From a virus, in the IMG/VR virus record IMGVR_UViG_3300021508_000002, positions 1 to 57,620 of that record: a stretch of DNA of 57,620 nt; one strand, 5' to 3'. Below the pieces are notes generated by a model that ran no database searches, was not told the DNA's origin, and saw nothing but the letters and a program-made list of their open reading frames with translations. Positions 5,622 to 12,891 of this stretch are shown piece after piece (positions within the stretch are counted from its first letter, which is position 1; the number at the start of each line of letters is the position of its first letter). Position numbers and translations under genes: made by a program.

Positions 5622-5653
5622 TTTTGTTATATAGTTAATTTAAACTATATTTG
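5622..5653 (+). promoter_or_regulatory. Promoter of the leader peptide and tRNA operon
   Basis: TTTTG (5622-5626) and TATATTTG (5646-5653) are separated by 19 bases, a full match to the Bacteroidota -33/-7 consensus. ATG 5658 begins four bases later, the same spacing as at 5130-5142, 33394-33406 and 37042-37054. I see no other promoter between here and the tRNAs. Confidence 0.75.
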
Positions 5654-5657
5654 CCTC

Positions 5658-5717
5658 ATGGTAATGAAACAACTACATTTGAATCAACCGAAACCGCTTA
5701 AACTATTTAAGGGATGA
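5658..5717 (+). CDS. 19-residue leader peptide rich in C-first codons
   Basis: The frame reads MVMKQLHLNQPKPLKLFKG followed by TGA. Eight of its 19 codons start with C: CAA, CTA, CAT, CAA, CCG, CCG, CTT and CTA. They specify Gln, Leu, His and Pro, four of the five amino acids served by the tRNAs downstream; Arg is absent. The start lies four bases after a strong promoter, so translation would begin at the 5' end. The frame ends about 28 bases before a Rho-independent terminator, and the stop codon lies inside an element that can pair with the terminator arm. This is the layout of an attenuation leader peptide. The peptide itself need not have a function. Confidence 0.6.
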   Translation: MVMKQLHLNQPKPLKLFKG

Positions 5718-5753
5718 TTTAATATGTACCGGCAATACTGTTAAACCCATTCC
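5697..5753 (+). promoter_or_regulatory. Alternative hairpins of a putative attenuator
   Basis: A first hairpin pairs CTTAAA (5697-5702) with TTTAAG (5706-5711). An alternative, antiterminator-like helix pairs GGGATG (5711-5716) with CATTCC (5748-5753) and TTTAA (5718-5722) with TTAAA (5741-5745), with a 1x2 internal loop. The second helix uses six of the eight bases of the terminator's 5' arm, so it excludes the terminator. A ribosome stalled on the early Gln/Leu/His/Pro codons leaves 5711-5722 free. A ribosome at the stop codon covers it. The pairing is seen in the sequence; its role is inference. Confidence 0.55.
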
Positions 5754-5773
5754 TACCGAATGGGTCTTTTTTT
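5745..5773 (+). terminator. Rho-independent terminator before the tRNA cluster
   Basis: ACCCATTC (5745-5752) and GAATGGGT (5758-5765) form a perfect 8-bp stem around loop CTACC, followed by CTTTTTTT. It lies 12 bases before the first tRNA and after the leader peptide. The tRNAs can only be made if polymerase reads through it, unless an unseen promoter exists. Confidence 0.9.
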
Positions 5774-5784
5774 GTGTTATAAAT

Positions 5785-5862
5785 CTTGGTGTTAGGTGCA
5801 GATGGCTATACCCGCCCGACTTGGAATCGGGAGATCCGTTGGTTCGAATCCAACCACTGAGA
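5785..5862 (+). tRNA. tRNA-Pro (anticodon UGG)
   Basis: Acceptor CTTGGTG (5785-5791) pairs with CACTGAG (5855-5861), and the discriminator is A. The anticodon stem is CCCGA/TCGGG with loop CTTGGAA (anticodon 5822-5824). The T arm is GTTGG/CCAAC with loop TTCGAAT. Position 37 is A, whereas bacterial tRNA-Pro normally has G37. CCA is not encoded. A single UGG tRNA can read all CCN codons if U34 is not restricted by modification. Confidence 0.9.
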
Positions 5863-5938
5863 CGAAATAGTTTTGACCTTGCGTTCTAAAATGACGTCTT
5901 AAAAAACATGAGGTGACCTTCAGGGAGAGGCCTGACCA

Positions 5939-6010
5939 TGAAGTATGATGTAATTGGTAGCATACGAAACTTTGATTTTCGTTGTTTGGGTTCGAGTCCT
6001 GATACTTCAA
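5939..6010 (+). tRNA. tRNA-Gln (anticodon UUG)
   Basis: Acceptor TGAAGTA (5939-5945) pairs perfectly with TACTTCA (6003-6009). The anticodon arm is CGAAA/TTTCG with loop CTTTGAT, giving TTG at 5972-5974. The T arm is TTGGG/CCTGA (two wobble-type pairs) with loop TTCGAGT. A37. No encoded CCA. Confidence 0.93.
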
Positions 6011-6016
6011 CAAAAT

Positions 6017-6090
6017 GGTATCTTTAGTATAACCGGTTAGTACAATGGGTTGTGATCCCATAAGTTTGAGTTCAAGTCTCAATTGATACC
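6017..6090 (+). tRNA. tRNA-His (anticodon GUG)
   Basis: The anticodon arm is ATGGG/CCCAT with loop TTGTGAT, giving GTG. The T arm is TTGAG/CTCAA with loop TTCAAGT. An extra G (6017) opposite C (6090) gives the G-1:C73 pair typical of bacterial tRNA-His. The inner acceptor stem has two apparent T-T mismatches, which is unusual and may mean that the stem register differs slightly from this call. A37. Confidence 0.85.
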
Positions 6091-6095
6091 CAAAT

Positions 6096-6177
6096 GCAGA
6101 AGTGTTGGAATTGGTAGACATTGCGGGTTTAGAACCCGTTGCTTAATAGCGTGCGAGTTCGAGTCTCGCCTTCTGTA
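6096..6177 (+). tRNA. tRNA-Leu (anticodon UAG)
   Basis: Acceptor GCAGAAG (6096-6102) pairs with CTTCTGT (6170-6176), discriminator A. The anticodon arm GCGGG/CCCGT carries loop TTTAGAA, giving TAG. A long variable arm between the anticodon and T arms is typical of tRNA-Leu. The T arm is GCGAG/CTCGC with loop TTCGAGT. Position 37 is A, whereas bacterial tRNA-Leu(UAG) normally has G37. Confidence 0.93.
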
Positions 6178-6181
6178 CTTT

Positions 6182-6253
6182 ATTTTCATAGTTTAACTGG
6201 AAAAACATTGGGTTTCGACCCCAAAGATGTAGGTTCGAGTCCTACTGAAAATT
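6182..6253 (+). tRNA. tRNA-Arg (anticodon UCG)
   Basis: Acceptor ATTTTCA (6182-6188) pairs with TGAAAAT (6246-6252), and the discriminator is T. The anticodon arm is TTGGG/CCCAA with loop TTTCGAC, giving TCG. The T arm is GTAGG/CCTAC with loop TTCGAGT. Most bacteria read CGN with an ACG tRNA whose A34 is converted to inosine. A UCG tRNA reads the box in the style of organelles. A37. Confidence 0.9.
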
Positions 6254-9528: not shown

Positions 9529-12500
9529 TTGGCAAAGAAAGTAGTAAAAGAGAAGAAACCGAGAAAGAAACGTATTGCACCTCTGAGGGGTTCTAACGGT
9601 GTTTGGTTGAACACCAAACCATTCAAAGAAGTTGGTGAGTATTTCATGAAGCATGGATACTATATTGCAGACCCTTGGGGATCTCCTGCATGGTATGATT
9701 TCTGGAAAAGGGAGCGAGATAGGTGTATGAATGGATATGCTATTTCTAAATATAAGATTACAGGAGATTACTATTTCTATCTCAACTATTGCCCTATACA
9801 GAAAGTAGACATAGAAAATGCTGTAGGTAAAAGAGCAAGTAAGATAAAGGGGTTTCCGGATTTTTGGGATGGGGACTATGAATACTTCTGGTTTAGAGAA
9901 ATAGCAAGAAATGGTATTTTAGAAGCCTTAAATGTACCATTAACAAAACAACAAGTTGTATATAATCTTCCTGAAGAAGAGAAGATTGAAATATATAAAA
10001 AACACTTAGATAGTTTGGGTCTAAAAATGAAGCCTGTACTTTCTAGTGTAAATTTAGAAGGTGGTAAAGATTTGATACTGGGGAAAGCTCGGCGTCGTGG
10101 CTTTAGTTATAAAAACAGTGCTGTTGTAGTCAACAATTATTTCACTAGACCAAACAAGTACAACCTTTTAATGGCTTATGAAAAAAAGTATTTGTACCCT
10201 GGCATAAAAACCATATTCGGAAAATGTCAATCTTATATAAACTTTATAAATGAATATACAGGGTGGCTAATGCCCTCTGATGTTATTGATAAACAAAGTC
10301 ACATAAAAGCATCTTACATAGAGTATAAGAATGGTAAGAAAATAGAGAAAGGGTTTCTTTCTGAAATAGAAGCTATTTCTTTTAAAGATAATCCTGATGC
10401 AGGTAGGGGGGCAGATACTTATGAAACAATTGGTGAAGAGGTTGGTGCTTGGGGAGTTCCAGGGGGGTTAAAAGCTACCATAGCTGCTATGCGGTCTTCT
10501 TCGGAAGCTGGTGGATTTAAAACAGGTATGATGACCCTCTTCGGATGTGTGTGTAAAGGTACTAAAGTTTATTTGCCTAATGGGGCTATTTGTAACATAG
10601 AGGATGTGCATGAATCTGTAGGTATAATAGGTTACACAGGGGGGGGTGTTATTTCTGAAAGGATTATTAATATAAATCCTATTATTAAAAAAGAATGCTA
10701 TAGAATAGAAACCACTAATGGAGATTTTATAGAGTGCAGTAATGACCACCCACTACTTTGGAGTTCTCCTAAATACAAAAAACCCGGGAAAGATGGGAAG
10801 AAAGTTACCTTTAAGAAAGCAGAAGACATACTTGTTGGAGACCAACTTATGTTACTTAGGCAAATACCTGTTTTTGGGAAAAAGAAAATGCCTTACGCAA
10901 GACTTATTGGTTTATTAATAGGTGATGGCTACTATGGCTCTATCAATGGTAGGACATCCACACCACAATTAGCCATTAATAATGAAGGTGTATTTGATTA
11001 TGTTAAATCAACCGGGTTGTTTTATAAAGTGTACAAAAACAAAGGTTCTTTCAATTACATAGGAATACACTCTTTCCAGGGCATATTGAAGGTCTTACAA
11101 ATAGATGGGCAAAGCAAGAAACAAAAAAGACTACCCAAAAAATTGTATGAATATGATTTACAGTCTATTGCAGATCTTTTGGGTGGATACTACGATGCTG
11201 TTGGGAATGTTAATTTAACAAAAAAGAAAAATAATAATGTTTCTATTGCTATAAGATTAACCTCCGTTGTGAGACCTTTACTTGAAGAAGTTCAAGAAGC
11301 ATTGAGGAGATTTGGGGTATTGTCTAGTATAATTAAAAGAAGACATAAGCCAGGGACTCTTCTTAAAAGTAGTATAACAGGTAATACTTCTGTCATAAAT
11401 ACGTTAATTTCATACTCTTTGGAAATAACAGATAGGGAATCTTTAAGGTCTTTCCAGAAACATATATCTTTCACCGATAGCTTAAAAAAGGAGAGATTAA
11501 AAAACTATTGTACAGATAGAAGTGATAATGAGCGTCAACTCAATAATTTTACATATGAAAAAACAGTAAAGGGTGAGTACTTTACAGACAAAAAACTAGA
11601 TGGGTTAACTTCAAGAAAGGTCTTAAATACAATAAAACTGGGGGAAAGAGATGTGTATAATTTAGGTACAGAAGAAACACACACTTATATCACCAATAAT
11701 TTTGTATCTCACAATACCTCTGGAAGTTTGGAAAAAGGTACTGCTGATTTTGCAGATTTATTCAACAGACCAGGTGCGAATAACTTCATGGAATTCTACG
11801 ATATTTGGGGAGAGCACCCTGAAAAAGTAGAGGGTTTCTTTTTTCCCAAACAGCTTAATACAGAAGGGTTTTATGACAAGAATGGTAACTCTGATTTTCA
11901 AGGGGCAGAGAACCAGGAAATGGGTGTTCGAAAGTCTTTAATAGAAAAGGGGGCAACTTCTACTGAGATTTTAAAAAGAATGCAGGAAGAGCCATTAAAT
12001 TCGGCAGAGGCCTTTTCAATGGTATCCCAAAATAATTTCCCTGTTGTAGAGATTAGACAACAACTAAATAAGTTAATAGCTAAGGGTTGGCAAAACACTA
12101 AAGGTACACCGGTAAAATTACACTATGTAGATGGTAAAATTACTGCAACACCAATCTTGAATGGGAAAGTTGAGCCCATAACATCTTTAAGAAATCTGCC
12201 ATTTGACTTAAGTGGTTGTCCTGTGATATATGAGGCTCCTATAAGTAAACCACCAAGAGGGTTGTACAAAATGGGATATGATCCTGTAAGACAAGACACT
12301 GGAACTTCTTTAGCAGCTATTGTGGTATATAAGTCTTTTCATGCAGGGTCTGTATACCACAGTACAATAGTGGCAGAGTATATAGGTAGGTATAAGACAC
12401 CAGAAGATATAGACAGAACAGCGGAGATGTTTGCAGATTTATTCAATACAACTATTATGTATGAGAATGAGGTGACAGGTACAAAGAATTACTTTCGCAG

Positions 12501-12891
12501 AATAAAGAGGTTGCACTTATTGGCTGTACAACCTGATGCGGTGATAAGTAAAAATGTGAAAACATCTCGTGTTGCTAGGGTTTATGGGTGTCATATGAAT
12601 GAGCAATTAAAAGATGCAGGAGAGAGGTATGTGAAAGAGTGGCTATTGACAGTTTTGGATCATGATGAGAATGGAAACAAGATACTGGTAATAGATAGGA
12701 TATATTCTAGGAGATTATTAGAGGAATTAATAAACTATACGAGAAAGGGTAACTATGATTTAATATCTTCTTTGTTTATGTGCATGTTTCAAGTTCAGGA
12801 AGAACAACTTGGTAAAGTGTATGGAGATGGTGAAGAAAATAAAAATGCCAAAAAATTACTAAATATGATTGAAAGGATGTATAGAAAATAG
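9529..12891 (+). CDS. terL: Terminase large subunit (TerL) with an in-frame intein
   Basis: The 1120-residue frame is a 730-residue TerL interrupted by a 390-residue intein (residues 340-729). TerL uses ATP to pump DNA into the procapsid and cuts the concatemer. ATPase features include GKARRRGFSYKNS (about 185-197, atypical Walker A region) and the acidic motif TIGEEVGAW (about 300-308). The intein sits after TLFG, in a conserved ATPase motif that continues TSGSLEKG. The nuclease half starts with MGYDPVRQDTG (D918) and has further acids at YENE and near D1077. The start is TTG with AAGG five bases before; no suitable ATG lies nearby. Confidence 0.92.
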   Translation: MAKKVVKEKKPRKKRIAPLRGSNGVWLNTKPFKEVGEYFMKHGYYIADPWGSPAWYDFWKRERDRCMNGYAISKYKITGDYYFYLNYCPIQKVDIENAVGKRASKIKGFPDFWDGDYEYFWFREIARNGILEALNVPLTKQQVVYNLPEEEKIEIYKKHLDSLGLKMKPVLSSVNLEGGKDLILGKARRRGFSYKNSAVVVNNYFTRPNKYNLLMAYEKKYLYPGIKTIFGKCQSYINFINEYTGWLMPSDVIDKQSHIKASYIEYKNGKKIEKGFLSEIEAISFKDNPDAGRGADTYETIGEEVGAWGVPGGLKATIAAMRSSSEAGGFKTGMMTLFGCVCKGTKVYLPNGAICNIEDVHESVGIIGYTGGGVISERIININPIIKKECYRIETTNGDFIECSNDHPLLWSSPKYKKPGKDGKKVTFKKAEDILVGDQLMLLRQIPVFGKKKMPYARLIGLLIGDGYYGSINGRTSTPQLAINNEGVFDYVKSTGLFYKVYKNKGSFNYIGIHSFQGILKVLQIDGQSKKQKRLPKKLYEYDLQSIADLLGGYYDAVGNVNLTKKKNNNVSIAIRLTSVVRPLLEEVQEALRRFGVLSSIIKRRHKPGTLLKSSITGNTSVINTLISYSLEITDRESLRSFQKHISFTDSLKKERLKNYCTDRSDNERQLNNFTYEKTVKGEYFTDKKLDGLTSRKVLNTIKLGERDVYNLGTEETHTYITNNFVSHNTSGSLEKGTADFADLFNRPGANNFMEFYDIWGEHPEKVEGFFFPKQLNTEGFYDKNGNSDFQGAENQEMGVRKSLIEKGATSTEILKRMQEEPLNSAEAFSMVSQNNFPVVEIRQQLNKLIAKGWQNTKGTPVKLHYVDGKITATPILNGKVEPITSLRNLPFDLSGCPVIYEAPISKPPRGLYKMGYDPVRQDTGTSLAAIVVYKSFHAGSVYHSTIVAEYIGRYKTPEDIDRTAEMFADLFNTTIMYENEVTGTKNYFRRIKRLHLLAVQPDAVISKNVKTSRVARVYGCHMNEQLKDAGERYVKEWLLTVLDHDENGNKILVIDRIYSRRLLEELINYTRKGNYDLISSLFMCMFQVQEEQLGKVYGDGEENKNAKKLLNMIERMYRK
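10546..11715 (+). mobile_element. Class 1 intein with degenerate LAGLIDADG homing endonuclease
   Basis: The element starts with Cys-1 (CVCKGTKV, block A) and ends VSHN before Thr+1. Block B carries SNDHP with the conserved His. Block C, LIGLLIGDG (intein residue about 120), keeps the catalytic Asp. Block E reads LLGGYYDAVG, with Val where the second catalytic Asp is expected. Block F is VYNLGTEETHTYI. All splicing residues are present, so splicing should restore a normal TerL. The endonuclease is probably impaired or dead. The length of 390 residues is normal for a bifunctional intein. Confidence 0.92.

Follow-up and report, generated by a model that had tools for sequence, protein, structure and literature searches.

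Attenuators of the trp, his, thr, and leu type consist of a short translated leader containing regulatory codons, a terminator, and a mutually exclusive antiterminator, with the position of the ribosome acting as the signal. T-box leaders sense uncharged tRNA and switch a terminator by binding the tRNA directly, without translation. It has long been asked why phages carry tRNA genes, the explanations including codon usage, replacement of degraded host tRNAs, and evasion of tRNA-cutting defences. Leader peptides have been described before hisS and hisZ in bacilli and, that case aside, leader-peptide systems had previously been known only from Proteobacteria and Actinobacteria (Naville and Gautheret 2010, PMC2965389). 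Moreover, phage tRNAs have been shown to evade tRNA-targeting defences (e.g., PMC11555353).

The window analysed here, the complete 57,620-nt stretch of the IMG/VR virus record IMGVR_UViG_3300021508_000002, contains a tRNA operon that is very probably controlled by a ribosome-mediated transcription attenuator of the trp/his type, with tRNA as its output. The predicted features of the locus are the following:

5622–5653, + strand: promoter, Bacteroidota-type (TTTG 5623–5626, 19-nt spacer, TATATTTG 5646–5653)
5658–5717, + strand: leader peptide frame MVMKQLHLNQPKPLKLFKG (ATG 5658, stop TGA 5715–5717)
5670–5705, + strand: sensor codons of the leader (CAA CTA CAT .. CAA CCG .. CCG CTT .. CTA)
5674–5689, + strand: possible region 1, pairing with region 2 (about 5713–5728) in the minimum-energy fold when the ribosome is absent
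5710–5722, + strand: antiterminator 5′ strand (region 2), overlapping the stop codon and the last codons of the leader; pairs verified
5741–5754, + strand: antiterminator 3′ strand (region 3), with 5745–5752 common to the terminator 5′ arm
5745–5773, + strand: intrinsic terminator (8-bp stem 5745–5765, T-run 5767–5773)
5785–5863, + strand: tRNA-Pro(TGG), ARAGORN
5939–6011, + strand: tRNA-Gln(TTG), ARAGORN and Rfam scan
6018–6091, + strand: tRNA-His(GTG), ARAGORN and Rfam scan
6096–6178, + strand: tRNA-Leu(TAG), ARAGORN and Rfam scan
6182–6253, + strand: tRNA-Arg(TCG), ARAGORN and Rfam scan

The first-pass annotation of this DNA had proposed such a layout, and its parts were recovered on re-examination: the promoter is TTTG-N19-TATATTTG, the leader ATG lies four bases past the box, the frame has 19 sense codons of which eight are C-first (CAA, CTA, CAT, CAA, CCG, CCG, CTT, CTA), the 8-bp terminator is present, and ARAGORN finds the five tRNAs named. 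The leader indeed codes for four of the five tRNA amino acids, an Arg codon being absent despite the tRNA-Arg in the operon. The 11-pair antiterminator-like helix also withstood a pair-by-pair check, with 11/11 pairs standard, arranged as 6 + 5 around a small internal loop and lengthened by a further pair, A5710–U5754. The leader transcript is probably leaderless or nearly so. The terminator ends 11 nt before the first tRNA, and the tRNA genes are tightly spaced save for 75 nt behind tRNA-Pro. At the place of this spacer (5864–5938) other operons have a tRNA-Glu, and Cellulophaga phage phi19:1 has a similar Pro/Gln spacer with an apparent small hairpin around GAGA, in which the stem letters are changed. 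The gap between leader and terminator (5724–5744) holds a second mini-frame, ATG TAC CGG CAA TAC TGT TAA, with Arg and Gln codons.

Taken alone, the window statistics are suggestive. C-first codons make up 11.7% of the codons of the phage and 8/18 in the leader (p about 5e-4 without correction for choice), and chance alone gives other mini-frames a similar share; the fold of the leader has a z of −1.8, the antiterminator duplex is equalled by 7/100 shuffles, and its core alone falls outside the best 5%. When the RNA is folded with a masking ribosome around CAA 5685 or CTT 5697, the antiterminator forms, whereas the terminator is obtained when the mask sits at the stop codon. With the ribosome close to the first sensor codons, the antiterminator appears as long as the transcript stops short of the 3′ arm of the terminator, but not once that arm is included, and the naked RNA folds into the 1:2 helix plus the terminator. 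The conclusion is carried by comparative evidence and not by the window.

The neighbouring proteins of the window led to almost no relatives, and therefore relatives were sought through tRNA-operon patterns. A first scan of viral contigs, based on Gln-His-Leu tRNA spacing and ignoring the leader, returned 26 loci, in which every Pro-(Glu)-Gln-His-(Leu)-Arg operon had, flanked by a promoter-like box and a hairpin, a comparable leader frame rich in the codons of its own operon. That relatives keep the leader thus held throughout this leader-blind scan, but not in a few relatives from later scans (L046, L047, L057), in which the start or the frame has decayed. Two more scans added many operons with different tRNA contents, and a held-out scan with a generic D-arm/T-arm tRNA pattern contributed 10 clusters in addition to the 40 described next, mostly of non-C-row tRNAs. 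With the terminator required within 45 nt of the first tRNA, and the leader defined, irrespective of codons and tRNAs, as the longest ATG frame of 12–45 codons ending 12–50 nt before the terminator, 59 terminator-preceded operons with a leader frame were obtained. They were grouped at 50% identity into 40 clusters, which lessens but does not abolish the dependence among related leaders. In the generic scan, a terminator lies close upstream in 15/131 operons and a leader frame accompanies it in 11 of those 15, but two of the four scans favoured a T-run upstream, and the counts are no estimate of prevalence. The hairpins of the set are G+C-rich, followed by T runs, and mostly lie 4–17 nt ahead of the first tRNA. 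A TAnnnTTG box occurs within 30 nt of the ATG in 31/59 rule-based leaders (28 are without it), and in 22 of these 31 its distance to the ATG is exactly 4 nt, whereas at control positions a box stands 2–7 nt upstream in 45/1180. Some larger phage contigs (L004, L006, L018, L020, and similar ones) have long tRNA clusters that showed no rule-passing terminator or leader and were kept out of the class.

The leaders match the tRNAs of their own operons. With one leader per cluster, the tRNAs of the same operon can read a share of 0.365 of the leader codons, versus 0.227 with permuted tRNA sets (z 10.2, 0/20,000), and the other two reading frames of the leaders reach 0.18 and 0.13. The match recurs in the held-out scan (0.336 vs. 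0.236, z 4.1, 2/20,000 permutations) and when all C-row operons are represented by the window alone, alongside 26 other leaders, with only leaders less than 35% identical kept (27 in total; z 8.5, 0/50,000). Chance was considered as the cause of this matching and is ruled out by the permutations, the held-out scan, and the C-row collapse. The match is concentrated 10–36 nt upstream of the antiterminator strand (own 0.53–0.67 vs. expected 0.26–0.35), is weak farther upstream, and is absent at −9 to +26 of that strand, which is the spacing expected because of the downstream footprint of the ribosome. Leader content varies accordingly from operon to operon, with MRTFANIFDFAFEFAAEADKS ahead of Phe-Glu-Asp-Pro-Ala, MTKFVVDTHDCKTRRDGRGFGKHDKDRY ahead of Asp-Asp-Lys-Gly-Lys, MNLNNNISTTTTNRWHRRTRTSQ ahead of His-Arg-Arg-Thr, MKTIINNNFRNFPIFSEAF ahead of Asn-Phe-Pro, and MRTSSTLSLTSLQHLTRSENSTEV ahead of His-Ser-Ser-Arg-Gln-Gln-Thr-Leu..., while five rule-passing operons lack a codon match (L009, L258, L269, L275, L094). 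Among C-row leaders, a Glu codon (last eight codons excluded) occurs in 10/11 operons with tRNA-Glu versus 2/16 without it, a p of 8e-5 that is only indicative because the C-row sequences are related. Close leader pairs show the same substitution, with IQRLPQH in operons lacking tRNA-Glu and IERLPQH or IQRLPEH in those having it; in L137, whose operon includes tRNA-Asp, the leader reads ILDP where relatives have LQEP, so that Asp replaces Glu. The sensor is thus not restricted to the C-first codons originally proposed; judged by codon content, it is specific to whichever tRNAs follow.

Named phages show the same arrangement. In Cellulophaga phage phi19:1 (Assiduviridae), found by BLAST, the same five tRNAs stand in the same order as in the window, directly preceded by an unannotated leader, MNNNTIHIQRLPQPKRFGEF..., and a terminator. 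Cellulophaga phage Calle_3 (Pervagoviridae) has about 20 tRNAs split over three operons with attenuator anatomy: MKTIMNIATDIRTKGVK... precedes Ala-Lys-Ile-Gly-Met-Asp-Thr-Val-Arg(TCT), MKTNMTYNNFSWYSNCSFSSYN... precedes Tyr-Ser-Ser-Asn-Trp-Phe, and MNARLLHQEPLEQLRLP... precedes Pro-Glu-Gln-His-Leu-Leu(TAA)-Arg. These leaders match their own tRNA sets at 0.71, 0.68, and 0.57, and the other two sets of the same phage at 0.08–0.25, where the unannotated Ala, Tyr, and Glu genes and an assumed tRNA-Cys of the second set are readings by eye, that of Cys being doubtful. In Tenacibaculum phage Gundel_1 (Pachyviridae), a Tyr/Ser/Cys/Phe/Trp leader, MKTKLYSYSCFSSWFKNRAG, is followed by Tyr-Trp-Phe-Ser-Cys-Ser, with Tyr, Trp, and Cys as our own readings.

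The second line of evidence concerns the switch. The 3′ part of each leader pairs with its own terminator 5′ arm at −12.8 kcal/mol, versus −8.1 with swapped arms (z −12.6, 0/20,000; 40 clusters), and 29/40 fall within the best 5% of dinucleotide shuffles; this repeats in the held-out set (z −5.3) and in the collapsed set (z −10.5). When a ribosome mask is applied in folding, sequestration of the terminator 5′ arm is 0.64 with the ribosome at cognate codons versus 0.21 with the ribosome at the stop codon, the difference exceeding 0.3 in 36/47 operons. The 1:2 helix is only weakly general (z −2.6, best 5% in 9/47), and thus ribosome position by itself may suffice in many members. Overall, the attenuator interpretation of the first-pass annotation is supported, since across operons the leaders follow the tRNAs in content and each terminator has an antiterminator strand that changes with it.

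In the proposed mechanism, RNA polymerase would initiate from the TTTG/TATATTTG promoter, and the leader would be translated by a ribosome from or near the 5′ end of the transcript. With decoding at normal speed on the Pro, Gln, His, and Leu codons, the ribosome would reach the stop codon and mask region 2 (5710–5722), the terminator at 5745–5773 would form, and transcription would stop ahead of the tRNAs. When charged cognate tRNA is scarce, the ribosome would stall at the sensor codons, leaving region 2 exposed to pair with 5741–5754; no terminator would then form, and the polymerase would enter tRNA-Pro-Gln-His-Leu-Arg, whose products would end the stall in a negative feedback loop. The same device, its leader codons fitted to the tRNAs that follow, would stand ahead of many other phage tRNA operons. 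Its sequence-based support consists of anatomy, codon–tRNA matching, spacing, mutually exclusive helices that change together, and occurrence in unrelated phages; from this we infer leader translation, stalling, termination, and read-through in cells. Rapid departure of the ribosome from the stop codon, or no translation, could alter the logic of the switch, and our guess is that what usually sets it off is the loss of host tRNAs in the course of infection, by destruction or shut-off.

An attenuator with identical mechanics could instead read the general state of translation, such as ribosome occupancy, antibiotics, or starvation, with the codon match arising from, for example, co-selection of rare codons. 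CGN codons are very rare (0.33%) and CTN codons uncommon (2.5%) in the window phage, CAN and CCN less so; nevertheless, the Phe/Glu/Asp/Ala leader ahead of Phe-Glu-Asp-Pro-Ala, the Asp/Lys/Gly leader ahead of Asp-Lys-Gly, and the three different leaders of Calle_3, each fitting its own set within one phage, make this very unlikely. Still less likely is that the leader is a small functional protein or a chance frame, that the hairpin ends an upstream unit, and that the tRNAs are transcribed otherwise. The C-first enrichment of the window alone is not extreme, and leaders within a family conserve residues beyond the sensor, for example MKT and GGxxV. However, the conserved GG codons form the antiterminator strand and change along with the terminator, leader content follows tRNA content in unrelated leaders, and across six C-row core columns the C-first position is kept in 619/1050 pairs that differ in amino acid, which protein function does not explain. 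Least likely is control of RNA processing or stability, in which the leader ribosome would shield or bare a cleavage site, the hairpin would be a processing signal, and tRNA maturation would be regulated: tRNA precursors require 5′ trimming and termination is itself predicted from sequence, but the G+C-rich hairpins with T runs each have an alternative partner overlapping the 5′ arm, and for this reason a terminator/antiterminator choice is preferred.

The attenuator anatomy was found in three named phage families and in the window phage, which indicates that the putative device recurs or moves between unrelated phages; many phages appear to place a codon-testing mini-gene and a stop signal ahead of their tRNA genes. 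Sigma-70-like promoters with an ATG close behind the −10 box in L108 and L115 make hosts outside Bacteroidota likely. In crAss001, the tRNA cluster starts straight after the promoter, with no leader or terminator, and most operons of the generic scan lack a close terminator; therefore, the device is not universal in phage tRNA operons. The crAss001 cluster lies directly behind TATCTTTG (L276:1590–1640), and this phage could serve as a useful negative control. A leader was sought and not seen in Lak-A1. BLAST of the L110, L043, L174, and L007 operons against named phages matched mostly tRNA bodies, with no leader except that of Gundel_1. The portal of the window phage is 53% identical to that of Flavobacterium phage Fpv1, and no tRNA is annotated in the examined genome parts of such named portal relatives. 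Elsewhere in the window, the terminase large subunit (9529–12891) matches its family in two stretches around an intein-like insert (about residues 345–727, CVCKGTKVYLPNG...NNFVSHNTS), and HYLIHYLIHYVIHY is repeated at length in a frame at 191–499, probably as a simple tandem repeat.

Similar arrangements were also observed in bacterial sequences. A 337-kb contig of a Bacteroidia MAG (L141:250–3080) has a GTG leader, VKNMILHFIQPQQLRPQSEEGDNYA, a terminator, and Pro-Gln-His-Leu; behind these come another terminator, tRNA-Arg-Phe, and a gene for the RNA ligase RtcB, possibly a tRNA damage response. In a Chitinophagaceae MAG (L147:4076–4690), a leader, MNLVLHIQRPLQPGSGLCERLCIY, and a hairpin with a T-run precede Pro-Gln-His-Leu-Arg on a bacterial contig, apparently outside any prophage. 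Three Obscuribacterales-type genomes (L145, L146, L148) have a frame, VIWSLQHQSLNGSQFNWLNPLRHGF..., directly before Pro-Asn-Gln-His-Leu-Trp-Phe, with cognate codons at 0.60–0.62 in frame versus 0.13–0.28 in the other frames and no terminator seen between frame and tRNAs; the neighbour genes in L148 have a chromosomal look. The tRNA pattern gave few chromosomal relatives, and no further instance was recognised in searches among the relatives of two of these.

It is an evenly balanced proposition that phage tRNAs function as codon-specific alarms, with an operon for each block of the genetic code that is silent when its codons are decoded well and activated once the corresponding tRNAs are cleaved or run short, for example through host anticodon nucleases, and that some bacterial chromosomes share the switch, once beside an RtcB RNA-repair unit. 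If so, phage tRNAs would be conditional replacements and not constant helpers of codon usage, a view favoured by a switch that responds to slow reading of its own codons and testable in cultured phages. The leaders would then show, codon by codon, the tRNA shortages that each phage is selected to expect, and the reach of leader-peptide attenuation would widen to include tRNA genes, the sensing of several codons by one leader, and phages of Bacteroidota and probably others.

As with the trp, his, thr, and leu attenuators, the phage device has leader codons, a terminator, an exclusive antiterminator, and a predicted ribosome-position signal. However, it is phage-borne and its output is tRNA genes instead of enzymes; one leader addresses several amino acids, with up to nine tRNA species (Calle_3 operon 1), its start is often near-leaderless, the final part of the leader frame contains region 2, and the protecting 1:2 helix is weak or absent in many members. 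The hisS/hisZ leaders similarly attenuate a gene that supplies charged tRNA, but this is a synthetase protein gene on a bacterial chromosome and involves a single amino acid, and the text of PMC2965389 mentions neither tRNA genes nor phages. T-box leaders share the sensing of tRNA charge and the terminator switch but act without translation, and an Rfam scan of the window returned tRNAs only, with no T-box or other leader family at threshold. The work on defence evasion (PMC11555353) shares the output, the production of phage tRNAs while those of the host are under attack, but its subject is tRNA function, and attenuation, leader peptides, and tRNA operons are not mentioned. Searches of the open-licence full-text literature brought up no tRNA operon, of phages or of any other source, with a leader-peptide attenuator, in line with the first-pass annotation, which knew of none for phages, although a report that we did not see is possible. 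The mechanism is of a known kind, whereas what is new to us is the tRNA output, the sensor for several codons, and the setting.
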